Assembly (NCBI RefSeq): GCF_014200595.1
Contig: NZ_JACHCG010000004.1
Coordinates: 434,001-498,000, forward strand
DNA: 64,000 bases
Direction of reading: 5' to 3'
Source of the DNA: Pedobacter cryoconitis
GTDB lineage: Bacteria; Bacteroidota; Bacteroidia; Sphingobacteriales; Sphingobacteriaceae
The translations under genes and the position numbers were made by a program. How positions within the stretch are numbered: position 1 is the stretch's first letter; each line of letters starts with the position of its first letter. Under the pieces are notes generated by a model, which was not told the origin of the DNA, ran no database searches, and saw nothing but the letters and a program-made list of their open reading frames with translations. Shown piece by piece: positions 3,448 through 32,309 of the stretch.

Positions 3448-3525
3448 GGGAGATTAGCTCAGCTGGTTCAGAGCACCTGCCTTACAAGCAGGGGGTCACT
3501 GGTTCGAACCCAGTATCTCCCACCA
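3448..3525 (+). tRNA. tRNA-Val (anticodon UAC), CCA encoded
   Basis: The cloverleaf is complete. The acceptor stem GGGAGAT pairs with ATCTCCC, the D stem is GCTC/GAGC, and the anticodon stem CCTGC/GCAGG holds the loop CTTACAA. The T arm contains GGTTCGAACC. Loop positions 34-36 read TAC, so it decodes GUA and probably other valine codons. A CCA end is encoded at 3523-3525. Confidence 0.95.
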
Positions 3526-3562
3526 AAAAAGCCCGCCAGGCTGTTACATGGCAAGAACCAAA

Positions 3563-3637
3563 GGGAGATTAGCTCAGCTGGTTCAGAGCACCTGCCTTAC
3601 AAGCAGGGGGTCACTGGTTCGAACCCAGTATCTCCCA
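3563..3637 (+). tRNA. tRNA-Val (anticodon UAC), CCA not encoded
   Basis: The body is identical to the upstream tRNA-Val copy, with anticodon TAC in the loop CTTACAA. The discriminator A at 3637 is followed by CTT rather than CCA, so this copy needs the CCA-adding enzyme. A strong terminator begins five bases later, making this the last gene of the two-tRNA transcript. Confidence 0.95.
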
Positions 3638-3641
3638 CTTC

Positions 3642-19310: not shown

Positions 19311-19318
19311 TATATTTG
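19311..19318 (+). promoter_or_regulatory. -7 promoter box ahead of the SAM riboswitch
   Basis: TATATTTG matches the TAnnTTTG consensus exactly. It would start transcription around 19325, about 20 bases before the aptamer P1 stem, so the transcript would carry the whole riboswitch. The -33 element is less clear (TTTAG about 15 bp upstream). Confidence 0.6.
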
Positions 19319-19346
19319 CCCGACAATTAGCTGTTCATTGATTTCT

Positions 19347-19455
19347 ACTTATCAAGAAAGACCGAGGGAAAGGCCCTATGAAGTCTTAGCAACCTATACA
19401 TCCCAAATATGTAAAAGGTGCTAACTCCTATCCACTTTAAGCGGAAAAGATAAGT
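19347..19455 (+). ncRNA. SAM-I (S-box) riboswitch aptamer
   Basis: The stretch carries the S-box core elements in order. P1 5' strand CTTATC (19348-19353) pairs with GATAAG (19449-19454). The P2 and kink-turn region reads AAGACCGAGGGA, then GGCCCTATGAAGTCTT and AGCAACC. P3 is formed by TACAT and ATGTA. The junction GGTGCTAACTCC and a P4 hairpin (TCC..GGA) follow. All diagnostic blocks (GAGGGA, GGCCC.ATGAAG, GCAACC, GGTGCTAA.TCC, GATAAG) are present. S-box RNAs bind S-adenosylmethionine and usually switch off genes for methionine or sulphur uptake and synthesis. Here the only genes downstream are a SusC/SusD pair. A computed covariance score was not available. Confidence 0.93.
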
Positions 19456-19489
19456 GACAGATATACCTTCAAAAAAATGGTTACTGTCA
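19455..19489 (+). promoter_or_regulatory. candidate expression-platform hairpin of the SAM riboswitch
   Basis: TGACAG, directly after the P1 3' strand, pairs with CTGTCA at 19484-19489, with an inner ACC/GGT helix. A shifted register pairs ACAGAT with ATCTGT (19489-19494). Its base overlaps the last P1 bases, so it may compete with P1. No U-run follows, so it is not a standard terminator. Confidence 0.4.
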
Positions 19490-19587
19490 TCTGTTCCCTT
19501 AATTATTCCTGATAAATAGAGCTGTTCAAAGAATGCTATGTTAATAAATTGAATTAAACACACCAATTATATAACTAGACCATTAAT

Positions 19588-22500
19588 ATGTATAAAACTT
19601 ACAAATACTTATTTGGGATCCTGCTATCCTTTATAATCGTACAGACTGCTGCGGCACAAACCGCTAAAATTACCGGCGTGGTCACCGAGAAATCTAACGG
19701 GCAACCTATACCTGGCGTAAGCATTTCTGTTAAAGGAACAAATGCGGGTACACAAACTGATGGAAATGGTAAGTTCTCCATCATCGCCAAACCAAATGAT
19801 ATCTTAAAAATCATCTCTATTGGTTATGCCACACAAGAACTCAAAGTAACTTCAGCAAATCCAATAGCTATACAACTGGATGAATCTTCTAATGAATTAA
19901 GTGAAGTCGTAGTGACGGCTTTGAATATTCCTAAGGAGAAAAAATCATTAGGTTATTCGGTGCAGGAGTTAAAATCAAAAGATATCTCCGAAGCGAAAGA
20001 AACTAACCTGCTGAATTCTATCTCTGGTAAGGTAGCTGGTGTACAGATTACCAATAGCCAGGGAGATATGGGTTCTTCCAGGATTATTATCCGTGGAGAA
20101 ACTTCTATTTCAGGAAACAATCAACCACTGTTTGTGATCGATGGAGTACCAGTAGATAACTCACAAAATTTAGGATCAGGCGGCTCACGGGATTTTGCTA
20201 ATACGATTTCAGACATCAATTCGGAGGATATTGAATCGATGAGTGTACTAAAAGGCCCTAACGCAGCTGCACTTTACGGCTCCCGTGCTGCGGCAGGTGT
20301 GGTCTTGATTACCACTAAAAAAGGTAAAAACTCTCCGGGTTTAGGAATCAGTGTGAACTCCAATGCGACTTTCTCTACTTTGTTAACCATTCCATCTTAT
20401 CAGAATTCATTCGGACAAGGGGCTAACGGTCAATTCAGCTATGTAGATGGTAAAGGCGGAGGCCTGAATGATGGAGTAGATGAAAGCTGGGGCCCAAGAT
20501 TAGACGGTCGTTTAATCCCTCAATTTAATTCTAACGGAGTAGCTGTTCCTTTTATCGCACATCCAAACAATGTACGTGACTTCTTTAACACAGGTTACAC
20601 CTTGAACAATGGAATTGCGATCTCAGGATCAGGAGATAAATATGATTTACGTTTCTCTTATAATAACCTGGATCAGAAAGGTGTTATTCCAAATTCTTCT
20701 CAATCAAAAAACTCATTCTTACTGAATACCACTTATAAAATAACGCCAAAGCTGACTTTTAATGCCTCAGCTAATTATGTAAATACGAGTGCAAACCTTC
20801 CTGGTTCAGGTGGAAAAAGAGCAAGCAGCACGATGTTGCAGTTCACCTGGTTTGGCCGTCAGGTTGATGTAGACCAATTAAAAACCTACAAAGACGCGAA
20901 TGGAAAAGATATCAACTGGAACAATAGCTATTACAGTAATCCATATTTCGTTGCTTACGAAAACACAGTGGGCCAGGTTCGTAACAGACTGATCGGAAGT
21001 GCAGAGTTGAACTATAAAATAATAGATGGTTTATCTGCAAATTTCAGAACAGGTAATGATTATTACAACGATCGCAGAAAGATCAGAATCGCTTATGGAA
21101 CGAACGGTACTCCATTTGGTTCGTATGAAGAAGACGCCTATACTTTCAACGAGAACAACACGGAAGGAAGACTGGATTTCACCAAAAAATTAAATGCTGA
21201 TTTTAATCTTGATCTCTTATTGGGTGGGAATATAAGAACGACTACTTTTGAGAGCAATGATCAGAAAGCTCCTAAATTAGCTGTTAATAACCTTTACACG
21301 CTTAGTAATTCACGTGATCCACTAATTTCTTCTAACATTTACAGTAAACAACGTGTATACAGTACATTCGGTTCTGCTCAACTGGGCTTCAGAAATTATG
21401 CTTATTTGAACCTTACAGCCAGAAATGACTGGTCATCGACTCTGCCTTCTCAAAACCGTTCTTATTTTTATCCTTCGGTTAATGCGAGTTTAATCCTTAC
21501 CGAAGCATTTGATATCAAAAGTGATGTGCTGAACTTTGCCAAACTTCGTGGTGGCTGGTCGCAGGTTGGTAAAGATGCTTCCCCTTATCAATTGATTAAT
21601 AATTATTCTTTCACCGCTCCATTTGATAGTAATCCACAACAAAACCTGAGTGATACAGATTTGAATCCGAATCTGAAACCAGAGACAACCAAGTCTACGG
21701 AAGCAGGTTTTGAAGTTGGCTTGTTCAAAAACAGAGTTCGTCTTGATTTCAGTGTATACAATACTAACAGTATCAACCAGATCTTAAGTCTGGATGTAAG
21801 CCCGACTACAGGTTTCCTTAAGAAACTGGTGAATGGGGGTACGATTAACAACAAAGGACTTGAAGCGCAACTTGGGGTAACACCTGTCAAAACAAAAGAC
21901 TTTACCTGGGATATCACTGTGAACTATTCAAAGAACCGCAGTAAAGTAAAAGATCTTTATCAGGGTGTACAAAGTTATCAGTTGGGAGTTGACGGGTCAG
22001 TGCAGATTCTGGCTGCCGTGGGACAACCTTATGGTACAATTTTCGGGACTGCTTATGACAGGAATGCTGCCGGAGATATTATTGTTGGCGCAGATGGAAC
22101 ACCACAGGCAAGCCCTTCTAAAAAGAACCTTGGAAAATATACTCCAGACTGGTTAGGCGGGATTACCAATAGTTTCACTTACAAAAGAATTAATTTAAGC
22201 GTTTTGGTTGATGCACATGTTGGTGGTAAAATTTACTCAGGAACCAATGCGACCGGAACTTATACAGGCGTACTGGCTTCTACCCTTCCGGGTCGTGGCG
22301 CTGAAAACGGCGGATTAACTTATTATAAGAATGCTGCCGGTAAAGCGGTACAGATTACCCCTGGTACTGGTGCGCCGGCAGGTGCAACCATCTATGATGA
22401 TGGTATGATTTTCAAAGGTTCTTTAGCAGATGCCTCTCAGAACAATACGATCATATCGGCCAGTCAATATTATAAATCTTTGAACAACATCGATGAGGCG

Positions 22501-22755
22501 TCTGTTTACAGTGCTACTTATATCAAACTGAGGGAAATCAAATTAGGTTATACTTTACCTGATCAATGGATAAAATCTATTGGTCTGCAAAGCGCAACGA
22601 TCTCAGCAGTTGGCAGAAACTTATTCATCCTGCATAAGAATGTACCTAATATAGATCCTGAGTCTGCGTTTAACACAGGTAATGGTCAAGGTCTTGAAGA
22701 TCTTGGATTGCCAACTGTACGTACTATCGGTTTCAATCTTAATTTCAAATTCTAA
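19588..22755 (+). CDS. SusC/RagA family TonB-dependent transporter under SAM riboswitch
   Basis: This 1055-residue outer-membrane transporter has a signal peptide ending AAAQ (about residue 24). A carboxypeptidase-D-like domain follows (about 28-110) with GVVTEKSNGQPIPGVSISVKG. The TonB plug is at about 115-240, with VAGVQITNSQGDMGSSRIIIRG and PLFVIDGVPVDN. A beta barrel runs to a C-terminus ending NLNFKF. There is no STN domain, so it is not expected to signal through FecR. It lies 133 bases after the riboswitch aptamer and 5 bases before its SusD partner. The riboswitch implies a ligand linked to methionine or SAM, for example methionine, a sulphur compound or methionine-rich peptides; this is inference. 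Confidence 0.93.
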   Translation: MYKTYKYLFGILLSFIIVQTAAAQTAKITGVVTEKSNGQPIPGVSISVKGTNAGTQTDGNGKFSIIAKPNDILKIISIGYATQELKVTSANPIAIQLDESSNELSEVVVTALNIPKEKKSLGYSVQELKSKDISEAKETNLLNSISGKVAGVQITNSQGDMGSSRIIIRGETSISGNNQPLFVIDGVPVDNSQNLGSGGSRDFANTISDINSEDIESMSVLKGPNAAALYGSRAAAGVVLITTKKGKNSPGLGISVNSNATFSTLLTIPSYQNSFGQGANGQFSYVDGKGGGLNDGVDESWGPRLDGRLIPQFNSNGVAVPFIAHPNNVRDFFNTGYTLNNGIAISGSGDKYDLRFSYNNLDQKGVIPNSSQSKNSFLLNTTYKITPKLTFNASANYVNTSANLPGSGGKRASSTMLQFTWFGRQVDVDQLKTYKDANGKDINWNNSYYSNPYFVAYENTVGQVRNRLIGSAELNYKIIDGLSANFRTGNDYYNDRRKIRIAYGTNGTPFGSYEEDAYTFNENNTEGRLDFTKKLNADFNLDLLLGGNIRTTTFESNDQKAPKLAVNNLYTLSNSRDPLISSNIYSKQRVYSTFGSAQLGFRNYAYLNLTARNDWSSTLPSQNRSYFYPSVNASLILTEAFDIKSDVLNFAKLRGGWSQVGKDASPYQLINNYSFTAPFDSNPQQNLSDTDLNPNLKPETTKSTEAGFEVGLFKNRVRLDFSVYNTNSINQILSLDVSPTTGFLKKLVNGGTINNKGLEAQLGVTPVKTKDFTWDITVNYSKNRSKVKDLYQGVQSYQLGVDGSVQILAAVGQPYGTIFGTAYDRNAAGDIIVGADGTPQASPSKKNLGKYTPDWLGGITNSFTYKRINLSVLVDAHVGGKIYSGTNATGTYTGVLASTLPGRGAENGGLTYYKNAAGKAVQITPGTGAPAGATIYDDGMIFKGSLADASQNNTIISASQYYKSLNNIDEASVYSATYIKLREIKLGYTLPDQWIKSIGLQSATISAVGRNLFILHKNVPNIDPESAFNTGNGQGLEDLGLPTVRTIGFNLNFKF

Positions 22756-22760
22756 TTTCC

Positions 22761-24194
22761 ATGAAAACAAAATATATACCCCTTTTACTGTCTGGTTTAT
22801 TACTGATCACCGCTGCTTCCTGCAAGAAAGATCTGACAGACACAAACATAGACCCGAATAACTCACAGAATGCACAACCTGAATTCCTGTTAACGGCTGC
22901 CATTAAAAACACATCCGATACTTATTGGGGCACAACCAATAATATGAATTCAAGTTTACTGTTTGTACAGCACTGGGCAAAAATTCAATATACAGATCCG
23001 GACAGATATATTTTCAGCAATACCGCTTTTCAGGATTTATGGACAACTGGTTACCGCCAGGGAATTGTGAACCTGAACCAGCTGATTAAACTGGCAGATG
23101 CGCAAGGGAATACCAACTACAAAGGTGTTGCGCTCGTGTTGAGATCATGGATATTCGCATTGGAAACAGATGCTTATGGCGACGTTCCTTATTCACAGGC
23201 TGGTGATATCACTCAATTTCTGACACCAAAATATGATGCGCAAAGAGACGTATACCTGGGCATATTAAGTGATTTGAAAGCTGCGCAAGCGAGTTTGGAC
23301 CCTGCTGGAAAAGCAATTTCAGGTGATGTTATTTATGCCAATTCAATTGCCAACTGGAAAAAATTCGCGAACTCTCTGCGTTTAAGAATCGCTTTACGTA
23401 TTGCGGACCGTGAACCAGCTTTAGCGAAACAGGTAATTGCAGATATTCAAGCAGAAGGCGGAACTTATATCAGTTCGAATGCTGAAAATGCACAATTGAA
23501 CTATAAAGCTTCTCCAAATCAAAATCCAATCAGCAATCTGTTTGATACCCGTGATGATTACCGGGTGAGTAAAACAATAGTAGATCAGTTAACTGCTTTA
23601 AATGACCCTCGCCTGCCTGTATATGCAAGTAAAGCAGTAAAGACACAACTTTATACTGGCGTACCTAATGGCTTGCTTACAGGCGATGCTGCGGCACTGG
23701 GATTAACCAGTACTTCAAAACCTGGTGCTTATTTTATTGCACCAACTGCGCCTGCTGTAATTATCAGTTATGCAGAAATATTATTTGACCGCGCAGAAGC
23801 TGCTGCCAGAGGTTTTACAAGTGAGAATGCAGCTGCACTTTATAGTCAGGCAGTAGAGGCTTCTTTATTACAATATGGTATTCCGGCAACGGATATTGCG
23901 ACTTATAAAGCAAGAGCAGATGTTCAGTATGATGCTTCAAATTATAAAAAATCAATTGGAAACCAGAAGTGGATTGCCTTGTTTGGTCAGGGGCTGGAAG
24001 CTTTCGCAGAATGGAGAAGACTGGATTATCCAATTCTTACGCCTCCGGTTGCTGGTGCTTTGAATGGTAAGATACCGGTCAGGTTTATTTATCCGGGCAA
24101 TGAGCAGTCTTTAAACCCTGATGGTTATAAAGCGGCAGTGGCACACCAGGGAACAGATGCTTTAACTACAAAACTTTGGTTTGATGTAAATTAA
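22761..24194 (+). CDS. SusD/RagB family surface lipoprotein (SusD-like_2)
   Basis: This 477-residue lipoprotein has a signal peptide ending ITAASC (lipobox Cys20) followed by KKDLTDTNIDPN. It has the helical TPR-like core of the SusD-like_2 group: LRSWIFALETDAYGDVPYSQA, ANWKKFANSLRLRIALRIAD and a late EAFAEWRRLDYP. The DAYGDVPYS motif is characteristic. It forms the lid on the SusC partner 5 bases upstream and captures ligand at the cell surface. Both genes should be controlled by the SAM-I riboswitch. No terminator is apparent before the barnase-like gene 106 bases on. Confidence 0.92.
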   Translation: MKTKYIPLLLSGLLLITAASCKKDLTDTNIDPNNSQNAQPEFLLTAAIKNTSDTYWGTTNNMNSSLLFVQHWAKIQYTDPDRYIFSNTAFQDLWTTGYRQGIVNLNQLIKLADAQGNTNYKGVALVLRSWIFALETDAYGDVPYSQAGDITQFLTPKYDAQRDVYLGILSDLKAAQASLDPAGKAISGDVIYANSIANWKKFANSLRLRIALRIADREPALAKQVIADIQAEGGTYISSNAENAQLNYKASPNQNPISNLFDTRDDYRVSKTIVDQLTALNDPRLPVYASKAVKTQLYTGVPNGLLTGDAAALGLTSTSKPGAYFIAPTAPAVIISYAEILFDRAEAAARGFTSENAAALYSQAVEASLLQYGIPATDIATYKARADVQYDASNYKKSIGNQKWIALFGQGLEAFAEWRRLDYPILTPPVAGALNGKIPVRFIYPGNEQSLNPDGYKAAVAHQGTDALTTKLWFDVN

Positions 24195-24300: not shown

Positions 24301-24708
24301 ATGAGAATTCTACTTGCTTTAATTACTTGTTGTCTCCTGCTTTTTTCCTGCAAAGGATCTCATGCGGTAACTGATCAGGCAACAGCCCAACAGGAAAAAA
24401 CAGCCGTTGATAGTTCATCCTCAACTGATGCAGATACAGAGGATAATGTCAAGGTAGCGGGCGTTCCGCAAAAGGCTTATACCGTTGCTGCTTATATAGC
24501 TAAAAACAACAAAGCTCCACAAGGTTATGTTGGCGGAACAGTTTTTAAGAACCGGGAAGGGTTATTACCTCAGGGTATAGCTTATAAGGAGTATGATGTT
24601 AACCCTAAAGTCAAAGGACAGAACCGGGGGACAGAACGAATTATAATTGGAGCAGATGGTATCCGTTATTATACCGGGGATCATTATAAAACATTTACAA
24701 AATTTTAA
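24301..24708 (+). CDS. barnase-family ribonuclease, predicted lipoprotein
   Basis: This 135-residue protein has an N-terminal signal with a lipobox LLLFSC (Cys17), then a disordered Ser/Asp/Glu-rich linker to about residue 50. A microbial guanyl-specific RNase domain covers 55-135. The catalytic set lines up with barnase: Glu97 in YKEYD (Glu73), Arg109 and Arg113 in NRGTER (Arg83/Arg87), and His128 in DHYKTFTK (His102). It should cleave single-stranded RNA outside the cytoplasm. A strong AAGGAG site precedes the ATG. The barstar gene starts 4 bases after its stop. A membrane-anchored, rather than freely secreted, barnase is unusual. Confidence 0.9.
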   Translation: MRILLALITCCLLLFSCKGSHAVTDQATAQQEKTAVDSSSSTDADTEDNVKVAGVPQKAYTVAAYIAKNNKAPQGYVGGTVFKNREGLLPQGIAYKEYDVNPKVKGQNRGTERIIIGADGIRYYTGDHYKTFTKF

Positions 24709-24712
24709 AGAC

Positions 24713-25162
24713 ATGAACGGATATTGCCTCTTTGAAGCTGGAAAAGAAAAGGATTTGATTAAAGACAACACACGTATCGTCAATATAAACGGACGTGAAA
24801 TTGTTACCGTGGATGAATTTATTCACGAATTAGCCAGACAGCTTGACTTCCCGGATTATTATAGCAGCAGCCTGGATTCACTGGAAGAATTGCTTAATGA
24901 TTTAAGCTGGCTGAAAGAAACCCAGTTTGCGATTGTAGTCCGTAATTATTCCTTTTTCTTATGTGAGGAAAAGAACCCGGCCAGAAAGACTAATTTGCTG
25001 GGTTTACTGAATGATGTAGCCGAACAATGGGACAATGTACCTAACTATCCGGGAGAAGAAGACTTCAGAAATAAAGCTGTCTTTAATATTTATATAGAAA
25101 AGGGCAATATTGCAGCTGCTGAACTGGAGAAACTAAACATCAGCTATAACGAGGTAAAATAA
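24713..25162 (+). CDS. barstar family inhibitor of the upstream ribonuclease
   Basis: This 149-residue cytoplasmic protein has no signal peptide. Residues 21-66 match barstar: RIVNINGREIVTVDEF, then LDFPDYY and SSSLDSLEELL. Asp55 and Glu59 align with barstar Asp35 and Asp39, which contact the barnase active site. The C-terminal half (70-149) is an extra segment not present in the roughly 90-residue classic barstar. An in-frame TTG at 24647 would start inside the RNase gene and is rejected in favour of ATG at 24713. It forms an inhibitor pair with the RNase and protects the producer before export. A bidirectional terminator follows. Confidence 0.88.
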   Translation: MNGYCLFEAGKEKDLIKDNTRIVNINGREIVTVDEFIHELARQLDFPDYYSSSLDSLEELLNDLSWLKETQFAIVVRNYSFFLCEEKNPARKTNLLGLLNDVAEQWDNVPNYPGEEDFRNKAVFNIYIEKGNIAAAELEKLNISYNEVK

Positions 25163-25233: not shown

Positions 25234-27498
25234 TTATTCAGCTCCGGCAGATTTTGGCCGGTCTGCCAAACTCACTCCCCATGTAGCAGAAGGCTGATCG
25301 CCCATGTACAAGGTGAGTTCCCCTCCTGCAACAATAGCTGCATGCAAGAGAAAATTCTTAGTATAAGGCTTGCCATTTAAAACAGCCTTCTGGATATACT
25401 TATTTTTCGGACTGTTGCCAATCACTTTAAGTTCAAATTTCTTTGCTCCCGGAAGATTAATGATTGCATGATCTACTAGTGGAGAACCAAATACATAAGC
25501 TCCGTTAGCTGGATTTACAGGATAAAATCCTAGAGCCGAGAATACATACCAGGAAGACATCTGTCCTAAATCTTCGTTACCACAAAGACCATCAGGTTTA
25601 GCAGTGTACAATGAATCTGTAATCTGACGTACTACCTGTGCAGTTTTCCATGGTTTGCCAGCATAAGCATACATATAGGGTGTATGGTGATTAGGTTCAT
25701 TTCCTTGTGCATACTGACCGATTAAACCACTGATATCCGGAGAACCACCTGCTTCTACTACTGAACTGATGCTGAATAAAGAATCAAGTTTTCTTGTAAA
25801 ACCAGCTTCGCCGCCAAATAAGTGAATTAAACCTTCCGGATCTTGTGGAACCAACCAGGTATACTGCCAGGCATTTCCTTCAGTATAATCATCTTCACGG
25901 TGTTTAGAAGCTACCGGGTCAAAAGGTTTGCGCCAGCTGCCATCTGCAAGTTTACCACGCATAAATTCTACCTGCGGATCAAAATATTCTGCATATAACT
26001 TCGCTCTTTTGCTGAAATAAACATAATCTTCTTCTTTATGCATTGCTTTTGCCATACGGGCAATACACCAGTCATCAATCGCATATTCCAGCCCTTTTGC
26101 AACAGCTTCATTTACTTTATCAGCAGGGATATATTTCAATTTTTGCGCGTATTCGATCCCGTCTTCTTTTTGCATTGCAGAATGTTTGATCGCTTCATAA
26201 GCAAGCTCTACATCATACTTTCTGTAACCTTTCAGATAAGCATCCACAATAATCGGTACGGCATGGTATCCAATCATCGTATTCGTTTCATTACCCATTA
26301 AGTGCCATACAGGCAATTTGCCCTGTTGTTTATAAATTGCCAGGAATGAACTGATAATGTCTGATACTTTATCCGGATGAATAATAGTATATAAAGGATG
26401 AAAAGCACGGTAGGTATCCCACAGTGAAAAGGTGGTATAGTTATCAAATCCGGGCTTGTGATAAACTTTCTTATCTGTTCCACGGTAATCACCATTCGCA
26501 TCATTAAATAGTGTAGGCGCAATCATCGTATGGTACAAAGCAGTATAAAAAACCTTTTTAGTCTCTTTACTTCCTTCGATCTGAATTTTTGCCAGTTCTT
26601 TATTCCATTTGGCATCGGCCGATGCTACTACTTTCGCGAAATCCCATGCTGGAATCTCAGCAGCTATATTTGCCAATGCATTTTCATAACTAACCGGAGA
26701 AATACCCACTTTCATTTGCAGGACATTTTTCTCAATAGCTTTGAAATTCAACACAGCTTTCATTTTTCTGCCTTTTCCTTCGATACCTTTAGCGACCTGC
26801 GTGCTGTCATAAAGTGACATGCTGCTTAAAGGCTGTGATAATTTAACAGCAAAGTATAAACGCTGGTCTTTAGCCCATCCTGTAGATAAACGATAACCGA
26901 CCAGAGTTGTGCTGTTTACCTGTTTGATATAGGTTTCAACTGGTTTATCCCACCCTATTCCATCACTTAAATCCAGCATTACATGTGGATTATCTTGTTT
27001 TGCAGGAAATGTGTAACGGTGAAAACCAACTCTTTCTGAAGCAGTAAGCTCTGCTTTGATTTTATATTTATCCAGAATAACACTATAATATCCTGGTTTA
27101 GCCACCTCATTGGCATGAGAGAAAGTAGAAACATAGCCGTTCTTCTGGTCAGTTTTAGTCCCTTTATCCAATTGCACTTTACCTGTAGCCGGCATAATCA
27201 GTACATCATTCAGATCACCAATTCCGGTACCACTCAAATGTGTATGGGTAAACCCTACAATTGTATTGCTGGAATAGTGATAACCACTGCACCAGTCCCA
27301 ACCTTCAAAAATGTTTGTGGGGCCTAACTGAACTGCTCCGAATGGGACGTTTGCACCAACAAATACGTGCCCGTGTGCATCCGAACCAATGATCGGATTT
27401 ACGTACTGACTTAATTTATTCTGCGCGCTCAGATTAAGACTAAAAATGAAACTGCAAATAAAGATCAGACCTGTTTTTTTTCTACTCATTTTACTCAT
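25234..27498 (-). CDS. GH92 family glycoside hydrolase (probable exo-alpha-mannosidase)
   Basis: This 754-residue secreted enzyme has a signal peptide ending LSAQ. GH92 marks are present: YVNPIIGSDAHGHVFVGANVPFG at the N-terminus, FTHTHLSGTG, FSLWDTYRAFHPLYT, then EGNAWQYTW (the Glu expected to act as general acid), GNEPNHHTPYMY and LCGNEDLGQMSSWYVFSALGFYP with the acidic calcium and base residues. GH92 enzymes are calcium-dependent inverting alpha-mannosidases that trim mannose from N-glycans and yeast mannan. It lies downstream of a SusD/SusC pair on the same strand, with a terminator between, so it may also have its own promoter. Linkage specificity is not readable. Confidence 0.92.
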   Translation of the reverse strand: MSKMSRKKTGLIFICSFIFSLNLSAQNKLSQYVNPIIGSDAHGHVFVGANVPFGAVQLGPTNIFEGWDWCSGYHYSSNTIVGFTHTHLSGTGIGDLNDVLIMPATGKVQLDKGTKTDQKNGYVSTFSHANEVAKPGYYSVILDKYKIKAELTASERVGFHRYTFPAKQDNPHVMLDLSDGIGWDKPVETYIKQVNSTTLVGYRLSTGWAKDQRLYFAVKLSQPLSSMSLYDSTQVAKGIEGKGRKMKAVLNFKAIEKNVLQMKVGISPVSYENALANIAAEIPAWDFAKVVASADAKWNKELAKIQIEGSKETKKVFYTALYHTMIAPTLFNDANGDYRGTDKKVYHKPGFDNYTTFSLWDTYRAFHPLYTIIHPDKVSDIISSFLAIYKQQGKLPVWHLMGNETNTMIGYHAVPIIVDAYLKGYRKYDVELAYEAIKHSAMQKEDGIEYAQKLKYIPADKVNEAVAKGLEYAIDDWCIARMAKAMHKEEDYVYFSKRAKLYAEYFDPQVEFMRGKLADGSWRKPFDPVASKHREDDYTEGNAWQYTWLVPQDPEGLIHLFGGEAGFTRKLDSLFSISSVVEAGGSPDISGLIGQYAQGNEPNHHTPYMYAYAGKPWKTAQVVRQITDSLYTAKPDGLCGNEDLGQMSSWYVFSALGFYPVNPANGAYVFGSPLVDHAIINLPGAKKFELKVIGNSPKNKYIQKAVLNGKPYTKNFLLHAAIVAGGELTLYMGDQPSATWGVSLADRPKSAGAE

Positions 27499-27516
27499 AT
27501 AATTTGTAAAAATAAA

Positions 27517-27567
27517 AAAACACCGGCCTTTCTATGCCTGTAACAGACGATAAAAAGGCCGGTGTTT
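27517..27567 (-). terminator. terminator between the SusD gene and the GH92 gene
   Basis: AAACACCGGCCTTT pairs with AAAAGGCCGGTGTTT around a loop of about 20 bases. On the minus strand it comes after the SusD stop and is followed by T residues. It may attenuate read-through from SusCD into GH92. Confidence 0.75.
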
Positions 27568-27581
27568 GTAATTTTATTGTG

Positions 27582-29192
27582 TTAGAAATTACCTTTCGCT
27601 AAATCCCACCATACTCTCACACCACCATTATCCTGCCCACCGATTGATTGTACAGCTTTTGCAAGCTCCACACCATTGGAAGTTTTCTCATTCGAAGGAT
27701 AAGGTAAACGGCGGATCTGAATTTGTGTATCAATCAGCCCGTTACTTGTATTGTTAACTACAGGGAATAACTTTGGATAACCTGTACGACGGAATTCTGT
27801 CCATGCTTCTTGTCCTTCAGGAAAAACAGCCAGCCATTTCTGAGTCATGATGCGTTCTAATTTCACTTCATTAGCAGCAGCATCATCCCACTTAATGGTC
27901 ATCGTAGAAACTGCCTTAATGTTATTCACATTATTTTTTGGATCTACATAATCAGCTTGTTTACTGGTTGCATCATTGATATAGGCAGTTGCATCCGTAA
28001 CTCCCCACTGTGACATAGATACCGTAATACCTTTTTCATAGTTTGTTTTTGGATCTCCTGCATTAGCCCAGCCTCTTAATCCAGCTTCTGCTTTTAAGAA
28101 CCAGATCTCAGCAGCTGTCATGATTTGCTGAGGAGCTGTATTTGTAAATGTTTTAACTACGTTCAAACTTGCATAAGTAACATAAGCACTTTTAGAAGGG
28201 ATATTAGAACCTATTCTGATTCCAACATACTGGCCAGCAAAAGCAGGATCCGTTGCCGGGGTTGCATAAGATTTCAACCTTGGATCATTATAGCCCACAA
28301 GATAAGTAGCAAGTGTTGCACCTAAACGGTTGTCACTATAATCATTTGTCAATTGAAAAAGATCATTTACTGAACCCGGAGCAACTGCAATAGCTGCATT
28401 GTCAGCAGCATCTGTTAATAAACCACCCGCAGCACTCATTGCTTTCTCAGCCTGTAACTTCGCAGTTGCAGGATCTGCTTTCACAATATGCATCGCTAAA
28501 CGCAATCTCAAAGAGTTGGCAAACTTGATCCATTTCGAATAATCTCCGTTATAAATCCTGTCATAAGCTGTAAAAGGTTTTGCACCTGGATTTGCAGCCT
28601 GAAAAGTTTGCAGGTTATTAACCGCAGTATCCAGTTCATTGAAGAACTGATTATATACGCTCTGCTGACTGTCATAAGGCGTATTGGTTAATGTTTTACC
28701 AACAGCACTGTATGGGATCGGGCCAAATTTATCAGTAACCCTGTGCATTGCTTCTACCTTGATAATTAAGGCAATAGCCCATAAATCGGGGTTAGCAGTT
28801 CTTAATCCTAATCTTGCCATTTTATTAACAGGCGCCATTACATAAGTATACTGGTCATTAAAGCCTGCTTTATCCCAACCATCGAACGGAGAATAGTTCA
28901 GGTCGTAATTCGCCATAAAAGGGGTTGGAGACATCATGTAACCAGAGAAACCGTCTGCACTTAAATTCTGTGCAATCTGGTAGTTTCTAAAGATAGAAGA
29001 TTGTAATGGCGGAAGTAAAGTAGGCAATTTGATTTCACTGTCAGGAATACCTGTCCCGTCAGTTGCATCTTTTTCAAAATTCTTTTTACAGCCTACCGCA
29101 GTAAGCAATAGTAACCCGGATAAAATGACCGCACCAGAACGGACAACTTTAGTCAGGCTGTTGTTATTTATTAATTTATGACTCGTGTTCAT
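27582..29192 (-). CDS. SusD/RagB family surface lipoprotein (SusD-like_2)
   Basis: This 536-residue lipoprotein has a long N-terminal n-region before the hydrophobic core. The lipobox LTAVGC lies near residue 35, followed by KKNFEKDATDG. Core elements include RVTDKFGPIPYSAVG, the group's equivalent of the D.YGD.PYS motif, SKWIKFANSLRLRLAMHIV and EAWTEFRRTGYPKL. It pairs with the SusC gene upstream, 24 bases away on the minus strand. With GH92 next in line, a mannose-containing glycan is a likely ligand, by inference from context only. Confidence 0.9.
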   Translation of the reverse strand: MNTSHKLINNNSLTKVVRSGAVILSGLLLLTAVGCKKNFEKDATDGTGIPDSEIKLPTLLPPLQSSIFRNYQIAQNLSADGFSGYMMSPTPFMANYDLNYSPFDGWDKAGFNDQYTYVMAPVNKMARLGLRTANPDLWAIALIIKVEAMHRVTDKFGPIPYSAVGKTLTNTPYDSQQSVYNQFFNELDTAVNNLQTFQAANPGAKPFTAYDRIYNGDYSKWIKFANSLRLRLAMHIVKADPATAKLQAEKAMSAAGGLLTDAADNAAIAVAPGSVNDLFQLTNDYSDNRLGATLATYLVGYNDPRLKSYATPATDPAFAGQYVGIRIGSNIPSKSAYVTYASLNVVKTFTNTAPQQIMTAAEIWFLKAEAGLRGWANAGDPKTNYEKGITVSMSQWGVTDATAYINDATSKQADYVDPKNNVNNIKAVSTMTIKWDDAAANEVKLERIMTQKWLAVFPEGQEAWTEFRRTGYPKLFPVVNNTSNGLIDTQIQIRRLPYPSNEKTSNGVELAKAVQSIGGQDNGGVRVWWDLAKGNF

Positions 29193-29216
29193 TTGTTTAA
29201 ATTTTAATAAAGGTTC

Positions 29217-32200
29217 TTAGAAAGTAACATTAAGGTTAAAACCAAGACTGCGGATAGCAGGCTGATTAAATACATCAACACCTGAAAGTCCGTTTCCGGT
29301 AGAAAGCGTAAGTTCAGGATCATATGGAGCCTTTTTGTAGAAATACAATAGGTTTCTTCCTGTTACTGCCAATTTTAAGTTTTTAACAAACTTGTCTTTA
29401 ATCGGGAAGGTATAACCTAAAGATGCCTCACGTAAACGTACTACTGTAGCGCTGTACATATATTCACCTGTTACCCCATTTCTTCCACCAATAGTTTTGT
29501 ACCATACCTGAGGATCGATCTGAGTAACTGCTTTTCCATTTGGATCAACACCATTGATCGAAACAAAACCACGGTCACGCGCTTCGCCACTTACTTTTGA
29601 AACACCGTATTCATCCAGCATTGCCTGAGTGATCGACATCACCTGGCCACCGAATTTTCCATCAACAAGAAGACTCAGACTGAAATTTTTGTAGTTAAAG
29701 TTGTTGCTCCATCCCAATTGGAATTTAGGGTTAGAGTTACCTACATAACTAAAATCGCCATTGGTGATCGGTGTACCGTTCGAACCAATCAAAATACGTC
29801 CCTGAGCATCACGTTTCAATGTTTTTCCATAAATATCACCGTAAGATCCGCCAGTAGTAATGTGAGACTCATAACCATTGTTATAATTTCCGGTCATGAT
29901 AAACTCATTGATTCCATCTTTAGAATCCACATCTATAATTACGTTTTTATTTCTCGAACCGTTGAAAGATGTACTCCATTCAAAATCAGAGGTTTTAATC
30001 GCATTATAACCTAACATAAACTCAAAACCTGTATTCTGTACGTTACCCGCATTGACATAACCAATAGAATAACCAGTAGCTACTGAAGGTGCAATCTGGA
30101 TAAACTGGTTGTAAGTATTTGACTTGTAATAACTGAAGCTTAAGCTTAATTTATTCTCGAAAAATCTCATATCAGTACCAAATTCCCATGATTTAGTCTT
30201 TTCAGGTTTTAATTTTGGGAAAGGTGCTACTGTACTCACTACAATCGAACCACTGTCATCAGTGTAATTAACCGGGTTAGTCACATATTGTGGAACACTG
30301 TTACCAACCTCTGCATAACTACCTCTTACTTTAGCATAAGAAATTACATCTGGCAGGTGGAACATCTGGTTTAAAATAAACGTAAGACCAACAGATGGGT
30401 AGAAATAAGATCCGTTTGGTGTAAATGCAAGGTTCGAAGACCAGTCATTTCTACCTGTTACCGTTAAAAATGCCCAATCCTTATAAGAAAGGTTGGCATT
30501 ACCGAAGATAGATTGTAATTGGTTATCATTTGCAGGCAAAGTTTTTGCATTACTCACTGTTGAATTCAACACCGTATTTTGTGTGATAAACAAGTTTGGT
30601 GTATTTAAACCTTGTCCAGCTCCGATAGTAACACCGGTTGTACGAATGTCTTTAATACTTGTACCCAAAATTCCGTCCAGCTTGAAGTCACCCATTTTAG
30701 GCGCTGTGAAAGTAGCCAGGAAATCACCATATTTTTGTTCTACAGTCTGGTTATTCAAAATCATTTGTCCATTCTCTTTAGAAAGAACGCCAGTTGTACC
30801 TGAGTAAAGATCCTGTTCGTAACTATCAGCAGTCCTGTCTAAGTTTCCTCTTACTTGTAAACTTAACCAGTTGTTCACATCATATTTAACACTACCGTTT
30901 AATAATATACGGTTTCTGTTACTGAAGTTTAAGTTACGGTTAGTGATCCACCATGGATTTTGCTGAACATCATTCTTCATCACAAACCAATTCTGTCTGT
31001 TGTAACCTTGCTGGTCACCAAGTTCGTATTGATTTTTATAAGGAGTGATATCATTTCCTCTTGGGAAAAGGTATAAACCCGTAAGCGGATTGAAATATAA
31101 TCCCAGTCCAGGAGTGTTATCAATTTTTTGTGCGATATAATTGATATTTCCATCAACAGTCAGTTTATTATCCAGGAAACGTGCTGTTTCGCGCATATTA
31201 AAGTTATGTCTGCTTAACTTATTTCCAGGCTCAATTCCTCTGGCAGCTGTATTTGCATAAGATACATACGTCTGCGCATTTTCAGTTCCTCCTGATAAGT
31301 TGATCGAATTCGTGAAGTTTGTTCCCGTCTGAAAAAACTGTTTCAGGTTATCCTGACCTCCATTAGAAATCTTCGGGCCATAACTATCAGTTGATCCTGC
31401 TGAAGTCTGTCCATAGTTATTTTGAAACTCTGGCTTGAAGGCAGCATTGTCTACTTGTAAAGAGCTGGAGTAATTGATAATTGCTTTTCCAGCTTTTCCT
31501 TTTTTAGTCGTAATCACAATTACACCATTTGCTGCATCACTTCCGTATAAAGCAGAAGCAGAAGCACCTTTCAGTACACTCATGCTCTCAATATCGTCAG
31601 GATTCAGATTGGAGATTCCGTCACCACCATCTACGTTGGTATTTCCACCCATCGTATTCGTTGGCTGACTGTTGCTGTTGGAACCATTAGACATTGGTAC
31701 ACCATCAATCACATATAAAGGTTGATTGTTTCCAGCGATTGATCTGTTTCCACGCAAAATTACTTTTGCAGAACCACCCACACCAGAAGCACTTGGCGAA
31801 ATTGCCACACCAGCAATTTTTCCGTTTAGTGAATTCATTAAGTTATCACTTTTCACCGTTGTCAAATCTTTATTAGAGATCTGCTGAGTAGCATAAGTAA
31901 GTGATTTCTCCGATTTCTTAACCCCTAAAGCTGTTACCACTACTGTATTCAATTCCTGGGCACTGGATTTCAACACGATATCAACAGTTGCCTGAGTGCC
32001 AACCGTGACTTCTTGTTTATCATAGCCTATATAAGAGAAAACGATGATATCACCTGCTTTAGCAGTTATACCATATTGTCCGGACGCATTGGTTTGCGTA
32101 ACCAGCTTAGTTCCTTTAACCTGAACTGATACCCCCGGTAAAGTTGTTCCTGTGGCATCGCGCACTGTTCCCTTCACCTCATCGGCAGCAGAGAAACCTG

Positions 32201-32309
32201 GAATGTTCATTAAAGGAGTTAATAGTTTAGGATGATCTGACTTTACCGTTGCAAAAGCATGCGACGAAGCGTAAAGTAGTAAACAAGTCAATTGTAATGT
32301 TTTTTTCAT
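29217..32309 (-). CDS. SusC/RagA family TonB-dependent transporter, no STN domain
   Basis: This 1030-residue outer-membrane transporter has an N-terminal signal (MKKTLQLTCLLLYASSHAFA). A carboxypeptidase-like domain (about 42-125) carries GTVRDATGTTLPGVSVQVKG. The plug contains LNGKIAGVAISPSASGVGGSAKVILRG and PLYVIDGVPM, and the barrel ends NLNVTF. Without an STN domain it is not expected to signal to the FecR encoded at 33197. It is nevertheless transcribed divergently from that sigma/FecR locus, sharing about 190 bp of control region. Together with the following SusD and GH92 genes it makes a small glycan-use unit. Confidence 0.92.
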   Translation of the reverse strand: MKKTLQLTCLLLYASSHAFATVKSDHPKLLTPLMNIPGFSAADEVKGTVRDATGTTLPGVSVQVKGTKLVTQTNASGQYGITAKAGDIIVFSYIGYDKQEVTVGTQATVDIVLKSSAQELNTVVVTALGVKKSEKSLTYATQQISNKDLTTVKSDNLMNSLNGKIAGVAISPSASGVGGSAKVILRGNRSIAGNNQPLYVIDGVPMSNGSNSNSQPTNTMGGNTNVDGGDGISNLNPDDIESMSVLKGASASALYGSDAANGVIVITTKKGKAGKAIINYSSSLQVDNAAFKPEFQNNYGQTSAGSTDSYGPKISNGGQDNLKQFFQTGTNFTNSINLSGGTENAQTYVSYANTAARGIEPGNKLSRHNFNMRETARFLDNKLTVDGNINYIAQKIDNTPGLGLYFNPLTGLYLFPRGNDITPYKNQYELGDQQGYNRQNWFVMKNDVQQNPWWITNRNLNFSNRNRILLNGSVKYDVNNWLSLQVRGNLDRTADSYEQDLYSGTTGVLSKENGQMILNNQTVEQKYGDFLATFTAPKMGDFKLDGILGTSIKDIRTTGVTIGAGQGLNTPNLFITQNTVLNSTVSNAKTLPANDNQLQSIFGNANLSYKDWAFLTVTGRNDWSSNLAFTPNGSYFYPSVGLTFILNQMFHLPDVISYAKVRGSYAEVGNSVPQYVTNPVNYTDDSGSIVVSTVAPFPKLKPEKTKSWEFGTDMRFFENKLSLSFSYYKSNTYNQFIQIAPSVATGYSIGYVNAGNVQNTGFEFMLGYNAIKTSDFEWSTSFNGSRNKNVIIDVDSKDGINEFIMTGNYNNGYESHITTGGSYGDIYGKTLKRDAQGRILIGSNGTPITNGDFSYVGNSNPKFQLGWSNNFNYKNFSLSLLVDGKFGGQVMSITQAMLDEYGVSKVSGEARDRGFVSINGVDPNGKAVTQIDPQVWYKTIGGRNGVTGEYMYSATVVRLREASLGYTFPIKDKFVKNLKLAVTGRNLLYFYKKAPYDPELTLSTGNGLSGVDVFNQPAIRSLGFNLNVTF

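Follow-up and report, generated by a model that had tools for sequence, protein, structure and literature searches.

A SAM-I riboswitch aptamer conserved upstream of a SusCD outer-membrane transporter pair in Pedobacter cryoconitis and its relatives, with a putative role in sulphur and methionine acquisition

In Firmicutes, the methionine transporters controlled by the S-adenosylmethionine (SAM) riboswitch of class I (SAM-I or S-box, RF00162) are inner-membrane ABC transporters. In the present work, a stretch of 64,000 nucleotides (nt) of the Pedobacter cryoconitis genome (contig NZ_JACHCG010000004.1, positions 434,001 to 498,000, hereafter the window) has been analysed, in which a SAM-I aptamer heads the genes of a SusC transporter and its SusD lipoprotein (SusCD). 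SAM-I control of uptake would be common to both cases, whereas the pair in the window belongs to the outer membrane; a metN-like operon with an S-box, named from its sequence, occurs in one relative (genome G028). We know of no riboswitch for BT_2263/BT_2264 of Bacteroides thetaiotaomicron or RagAB of Porphyromonas gingivalis. Both are SusCD-type oligopeptide transporters, with oligopeptide ligands reported (PMC7782687). In Bacteroidota, a cobalamin riboswitch heads outer-membrane TonB-dependent transporters of the BtuB type, and THC0290_1776 in F. psychrophilum (PMC9723704), and S-boxes have been noted in Bacteroidetes/Chlorobi (PMC2211319).

The window leader resembles described SAM-I elements in its full-length match, its conserved core, a promoter just upstream and a regulon shared with metY and metH, but it differs from them in heading an outer-membrane SusCD pair and in having no canonical terminator. 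No report of SAM-I control of SusCD was found among the open-access papers searched, subscription papers and regulon databases being outside this search. Both parts are of known kinds, while their combination would seem to add a new class of target for SAM-I. The arrangement is probably a SAM-sensing off switch over SusCD within a sulphur/methionine acquisition regulon, with organic sulphur as the cargo, a reading that we hold with good confidence.

The aptamer and the SusCD pair in the window

The Rfam search revealed a single SAM-I riboswitch in the window, at positions 19346-19456 of the forward strand, scoring 84.9 bits where the gathering cut-off is 44.4, with an E value of 1.2e-18. The match is complete (RF00162 model positions 1-108) and bears out the S-box leader claimed in the original prediction for this DNA. 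The TAnnTTTG box that had been placed just before the leader is also present as TATATTTG at 19311-19318 (+), which fits the Bacteroidota promoter consensus and is located 35 nt 5' of the aptamer.

The aptamer is separated by 131 nt from a gene encoding a SusC/RagA-type TonB-dependent outer-membrane transporter of 1055 amino acids (19588-22755, +), which exceeds the cut-offs of both TIGR04056 (656.4 versus 368.25 bits) and the SusC signature (59.5 versus 46.2 bits). CarboxypepD_reg, Plug and barrel domains were recognised in this protein, and no STN domain was detected with Pfam. Only 5 nt behind it lies the gene of a SusD-type surface lipoprotein of 477 amino acids (22761-24194, +; PF12771, 381.5 bits), 94% identical to that of Pedobacter cryoconitis DSM 14825; structure prediction based on 20 SusD sequences gave a poor model, with a mean pLDDT of 61.5. 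The family searches therefore agree with the original prediction that SusC and SusD are the first genes downstream and that SusC lacks an STN domain. Its further claim that no sigma/FecR pair is nearby also held, none being recognised by eye between 14 and 32 kb, where nine proteins were searched against families. It is plausible that the RNA would be the main control of SusCD.

Conservation of the arrangement and the S-box regulon

Two sets of relatives have been compared. The genus set included the genome of the window (G000) and 59 relatives, with S-boxes taken from a separate RNA search and placed by coordinates; RNA searches over more than 40 genomes used stricter filters, with loss of weak RNA matches. 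The named set was obtained by scanning genome contigs with a SusD alignment and keeping the best 80 of 340 loci (L). Both sets overlap (L155 and G022:C2 are one such case), and their counts are not additive.

One close SusD orthologue was found in each of 21 genomes of the genus, with 61-100% identity, the next best protein having 43%, and 20 of these 21 genomes carry an S-box upstream of the SusC gene. The P. cryoconitis genome carries four S-boxes in 6.35 Mb and 56 SusC genes, and simple arithmetic on it gives a chance of about 0.2% that a random site falls less than 450 nt before a SusC gene on the right strand. In the named set an S-box was found in 65 of 80 loci, 63 of them in sense upstream of SusC and two on the opposite strand (L177, L183), while 15 gave no match, including three (L167, L178, L185) that end before the SusC start. 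According to the names in the records, 70 of the 80 loci belong to Sphingobacteriaceae; the 67 readable ones comprise 62 with a sense S-box, two with an opposite one and three with none. Sediminibacterium (L215), outside this family, also has a sense S-box. One or two genes stand between the S-box and SusC in 18 of the 63 sense loci; 16 of these have a short thioredoxin-fold gene there and four a NifS-like one. The covariance model applied to this set was built from 40 aptamers, its predicted structure containing only 14 pairs with P1 left out. As these aptamers come partly from the SusCD locus itself, the independent check is that of Rfam, which agreed with the model at 11 of 11 sampled loci. 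The survey of homologues for S-box leaders proposed along with the original prediction has thus yielded 20 of 21 loci in the genus and 63 of 80 in sense in the named set. The proposal that the S-box governs SusCD is strongly supported by this conservation.

The structure was scored in 51 aptamers, that of the window and 50 of the 63 sense loci, with the inner P3 left out. In the stems, 93.6% of the cells are paired, against 34-48% in slid versions, and 117 cells are altered on both sides of the stems, a value reached in none of 500 shuffles, although shared ancestry of the aptamers inflates such cell counts. Neither the count of doubly changed pairs (9) nor that of pair types (19), however, exceeded the shuffles. 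By cell counts, then, the four-stem structure of RF00162 is kept by compensatory change. In P1, the two outermost pairs fail to form in most of the aptamers (35 and 26 of the 51), and another P1 pair is open in 18, where U.U replaces U-A (columns 7 and 112 of alignment A4). This U.U pair, which we take to adjoin the ligand site, was found in the Pedobacter type whose leaders have a terminator. A TAnnTTTG box is present within 45 nt of the aptamer in all 63 sense orthologue leaders, versus 2 of 189 control windows taken farther 5'; when every fetched S-box site is considered, it occurs in 48 of 123. The linkage of the S-box RNA to SusCD is real and conserved, and from it we infer a SAM-responsive function.

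These 123 sites include all 116 listed for genomes G000-G034 (G035 has none) and seven from other genera. The first genes downstream are metH (36 sites), metY type (35), window-type SusC (20), NifS-like (9), a long thioredoxin-fold protein (6), DUF4833 (5), M28 peptidase (3) and metX-like (3), with single cases of a different SusC in G022, of a thioredoxin-M28-SusC-SusD operon and of the metN-like operon in G028, and of an unassigned gene in G056; two sites have no downstream gene. The metX, metN and metH names were read from the sequences, and metY was confirmed by TIGR01326 over its cut-off. SusC and SusD are headed by 23 of the 116 same-genus S-boxes (21 identified by script plus those of G028 and G034, where SusD was confirmed), most of the others heading metH or metY. 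Two further sites (G011 C40 and G019 C2) head a SusC-like protein and a lipoprotein without the Pfam SusD domain (510 amino acids in G019) and were not counted; nor was a NifS-headed operon of G009 (L064) that reaches SusC and SusD after a gap of 405 nt, and the TonB receptor found in the operon of thioredoxin-fold genes was not taken as a SusC. Control of methionine or sulphur genes, as described for RF00162, is thus recognisable in the regulon (metY, metH) and by extension may include SusCD. In a sample of the family, S-boxes were present in 118 of 121 genomes, and the 27 loci kept from its top-scoring sites included window-type SusC (7), NifS (6), metY (7) and thioredoxin plus M28 (1), with six matching none of the seeds within 1.5 kb.

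The four S-boxes of the P. cryoconitis genome head metY (TIGR01326), metH, SusCD and a thioredoxin-fold operon. The latter (G000:C2:329497-338000, L037) encodes two long thioredoxin-fold proteins, YceI, a MauG-type di-haem peroxidase, a TonB receptor and a DUF4397 protein, and relatives of its first thioredoxin-fold gene stand divergent to SusCD in 25 of the 80 named loci. In L062 (G009), L073 (G011) and L139 (G033), two back-to-back S-boxes are spaced by about 1 kb, one heading the thioredoxin-fold operon and the other a DUF4833 gene divergent from it.

Leader folding and the proposed switch

The full window leader is more stable than its shuffles (z -3.38). Directly after the aptamer, a hairpin without a U-tract is predicted at 19455-19489 (+), overlapping the two outer P1 pairs; it may form part of an expression platform, and its arms recur, by eye, in L154, L155 and L156. 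When P1 is not forced, the fold predicts pairing between the aptamer's 5' half and a candidate alternative strand at 19494-19515 (+). A strict terminator follows the aptamer in 22 of the 63 sense leaders, namely 21 of Pedobacter type (one of which, L207, is named only to Sphingobacteriaceae) and L215. In 16 terminator-type leaders, the P1 3' strand pairs in silico with the downstream region at -5.8 to -8.7 kcal/mol, a range computed with no shuffled control, and in 14 of them it meets the loop and arm of the terminator as a candidate antiterminator; L209 pairs elsewhere and L215 in another register. When two leaders of this subgroup were folded in full, that of L206 lost the terminator without P1 and formed it with P1 forced. 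The terminator and candidate antiterminator of the Pedobacter subgroup thus resemble, in these predicted folds, a classical off switch. Terminator-like matches were found in 6 of 34 metY leaders (3.6 expected) and in 5 of 36 metH leaders (4.5 expected).

In the mechanism proposed, transcription would start just 3' of TATATTTG and the SAM-I aptamer would be made first. With plentiful SAM, the aptamer would close P1 and the leader would adopt a conformation in which SusC and SusD stay off; as SAM becomes scarce, P1 would open and both proteins would be made. A nutrient feeding into methionine would then be carried through the outer membrane by the pair, organic sulphur being the most likely kind, in the form of sulphur amino acids or of peptides containing them. 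The pair would share an S-box regulon with metY, metH, metX-like and metN-like genes, thioredoxin-fold proteins and NifS-like cysteine desulfurases. We infer SAM binding, the off direction, the control mode of the window's own leader and the cargo from sequence.

Several observations weigh against this mechanism or the cargo it assumes. A canonical terminator was sought in the window's own leader and not found, the leader region after the aptamer is no more stable than shuffles (z -0.29), and the second leader folded in full, L227, keeps its terminator in both states. In the genus, G017 (L147) is the exception among the 21 orthologues, with no S-box match up to an E value of 1; in the named set, the Sphingobacteriaceae loci L169, L186 and L188 have SusCD without an S-box, as do 9 of the 10 loci from outside the family, mostly Chitinophagaceae. 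The pair therefore works without an S-box in these loci. In the window itself, the neighbours of the S-box SusCD are ribonuclease and barstar genes, not sulphur genes, and the genome has CysH-like and sulphite-reductase genes. Because of these genes, a dependence on organic sulphur through lack of sulphate reduction was rejected.

No other Rfam element at gathering score was found in the leaders of 11 S-box-less loci (L230 was outside this set), except a tRNA in L169. Such tRNA matches of about 46-48 bits lie 5' of SusC in two Mucilaginibacter loci (L169, 2185-2254; L184, 2404-2473). In L147 (G017:C5:388000-406000), a divergent SusC/SusD pair with 36-37% identity abuts the S-box-less orthologue.

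Cargo, alternatives and neighbouring genes

The cargo is best read as linked to methionine or sulphur, because the S-boxes of the genus head metY, metH, metX-like and metN-like genes and the orthologue loci add thioredoxin-fold and NifS-like genes. A thioredoxin-fold gene adjoins SusCD in 46 of the 80 orthologue loci (25 divergent, 17 upstream and 5 downstream, L169 being counted twice) and a NifS-like gene in eight; the names of these neighbours reflect family membership only, with NifS matches below the equivalog cut-offs. In Segetibacter both genes stand beside SusCD, and no S-box was found there. The association with thioredoxin-fold genes is not the rule in the P. cryoconitis genome, since only about 2 of its 56 SusC genes, counted by hand and not including that of the window, are less than 5 kb from any of the 20 AhpC-TSA genes over the cut-off; the best NifS match of this genome, at C1:126790 with 47% identity, has no S-box nearby. 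The pattern of neighbours points to reduced organic sulphur, and cysteine- or disulfide-bearing peptides would fit it at least as well as methionine. Of the methionine-linked cargo suggested originally, the sulphur/methionine link is thus retained as the best reading, from the S-box regulon and the orthologue neighbours, while methionine itself is not singled out.

The alternative that survives best, although we consider it improbable, is that the pair takes up peptides in general for carbon and nitrogen, SAM signalling sufficiency of amino acids and not a sulphur cargo. The best match of the window SusC among solved chains is BT_2264 (441.7 bits, the next at 170), and BT_2263 is related to the window SusD (90 bits); oligopeptides are reported in the Bt2261-64 structure (PMC7782687). 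M28 peptidase genes also occur with SusC under S-boxes in G011, G019, G028 and G034. However, the second SusC of the window, beside a GH92 gene, has BT_2264 as its best match too (349.6 bits), as has the SusC of G022, so that this similarity does not tell the cargo; it was dropped as a diagnostic of peptides and kept as weak evidence only. The NifS-like and thioredoxin-fold neighbours of the orthologues, moreover, point to sulphur.

Uptake of cobalamin or another corrinoid for the B12-dependent MetH of the same regulon is considerably less probable. The metH gene is headed by an S-box in the same genomes, and TonB-dependent uptake of cobalamin is known in Bacteroides, with riboswitches reportedly named in the papers concerned (PMC10404256, PMC6143338). 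A cofactor riboswitch before an outer-membrane TonB-dependent transporter is indeed what the window has in common with the BtuB-type systems, but ligand and riboswitch class are different, and the window SusC falls outside the TonB-B12 family, scoring 63.3 bits with TIGR01779 against a cut-off of 599.7 and only in the plug region; nor do thioredoxin-fold and NifS-like neighbours suggest corrinoids.

A glycan cargo, with a riboswitch that merely couples expression to the general growth state, seems just as remote. SusCD pairs are usually tied to glycans, and the opposite strand bears, in the adjoining region (25234-32309, -), a GH92 gene together with a SusD and a SusC of its own, in what looks like an ordinary glycan locus. 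The S-box SusCD unit contains no carbohydrate-active enzyme, as a polysaccharide utilisation locus would, and none was seen in the labelled orthologue neighbours inspected; moreover, S-box control is kept across two main genera. A relic aptamer, or one that stands before SusCD by accident, is very hard to reconcile with the conservation, covariation and promoter spacing seen across genera, despite a window leader without a canonical expression platform.

With organic sulphur as the preferred cargo, a broader scheme can be tentatively drawn, which we regard as possible but somewhat doubtful. In Sphingobacteriaceae, a SAM-sensed scavenging route might run from the cell surface to methionine: SusCD would import cysteine- or disulfide-bearing peptides, thioredoxin-fold proteins would reduce them, M28 peptidases would cut them, a NifS-like cysteine desulfurase would free the sulphur, and MetX, MetY and MetH would build methionine, each gene group being headed by an S-box in some genomes. 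SAM-I control of SusCD would have arisen repeatedly: in the window type, in a different pair of G022 and in the M28-linked pair of G028 and G034.

Behind SusD, after 106 nt, the window carries a gene for a PF00545 ribonuclease with a lipoprotein-like N-terminus (24301-24708, +), possibly on the same transcript, adjoined by one for a barstar-family protein (PF01337; 24647-25162, +, start uncertain). Both genes (24301-25162) stand behind SusD in 5 of the 20 window-type loci of the genus and may be co-transcribed from the S-box leader; a nutrient gate followed by a surface nuclease with its inhibitor is a puzzling combination. Elsewhere in the window, at 3448-3638, there are two tandem tRNA-Val (TAC) genes whose scores and alignments in Rfam are equal.

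Bacteroidota rely on SusCD pairs as their main nutrient gates, and what such a pair carries is mostly guessed from the sugar enzymes encoded nearby. A leader riboswitch specific for one ligand would be an independent clue to the cargo and would move such pairs out of the glycan frame, and SusC genes annotated by default as starch-type could be reassigned by means of leader riboswitches. For the pair described here, a sulphur- or methionine-linked function predicts that methionine status would switch SusCD and that its cargo would relieve methionine limitation.

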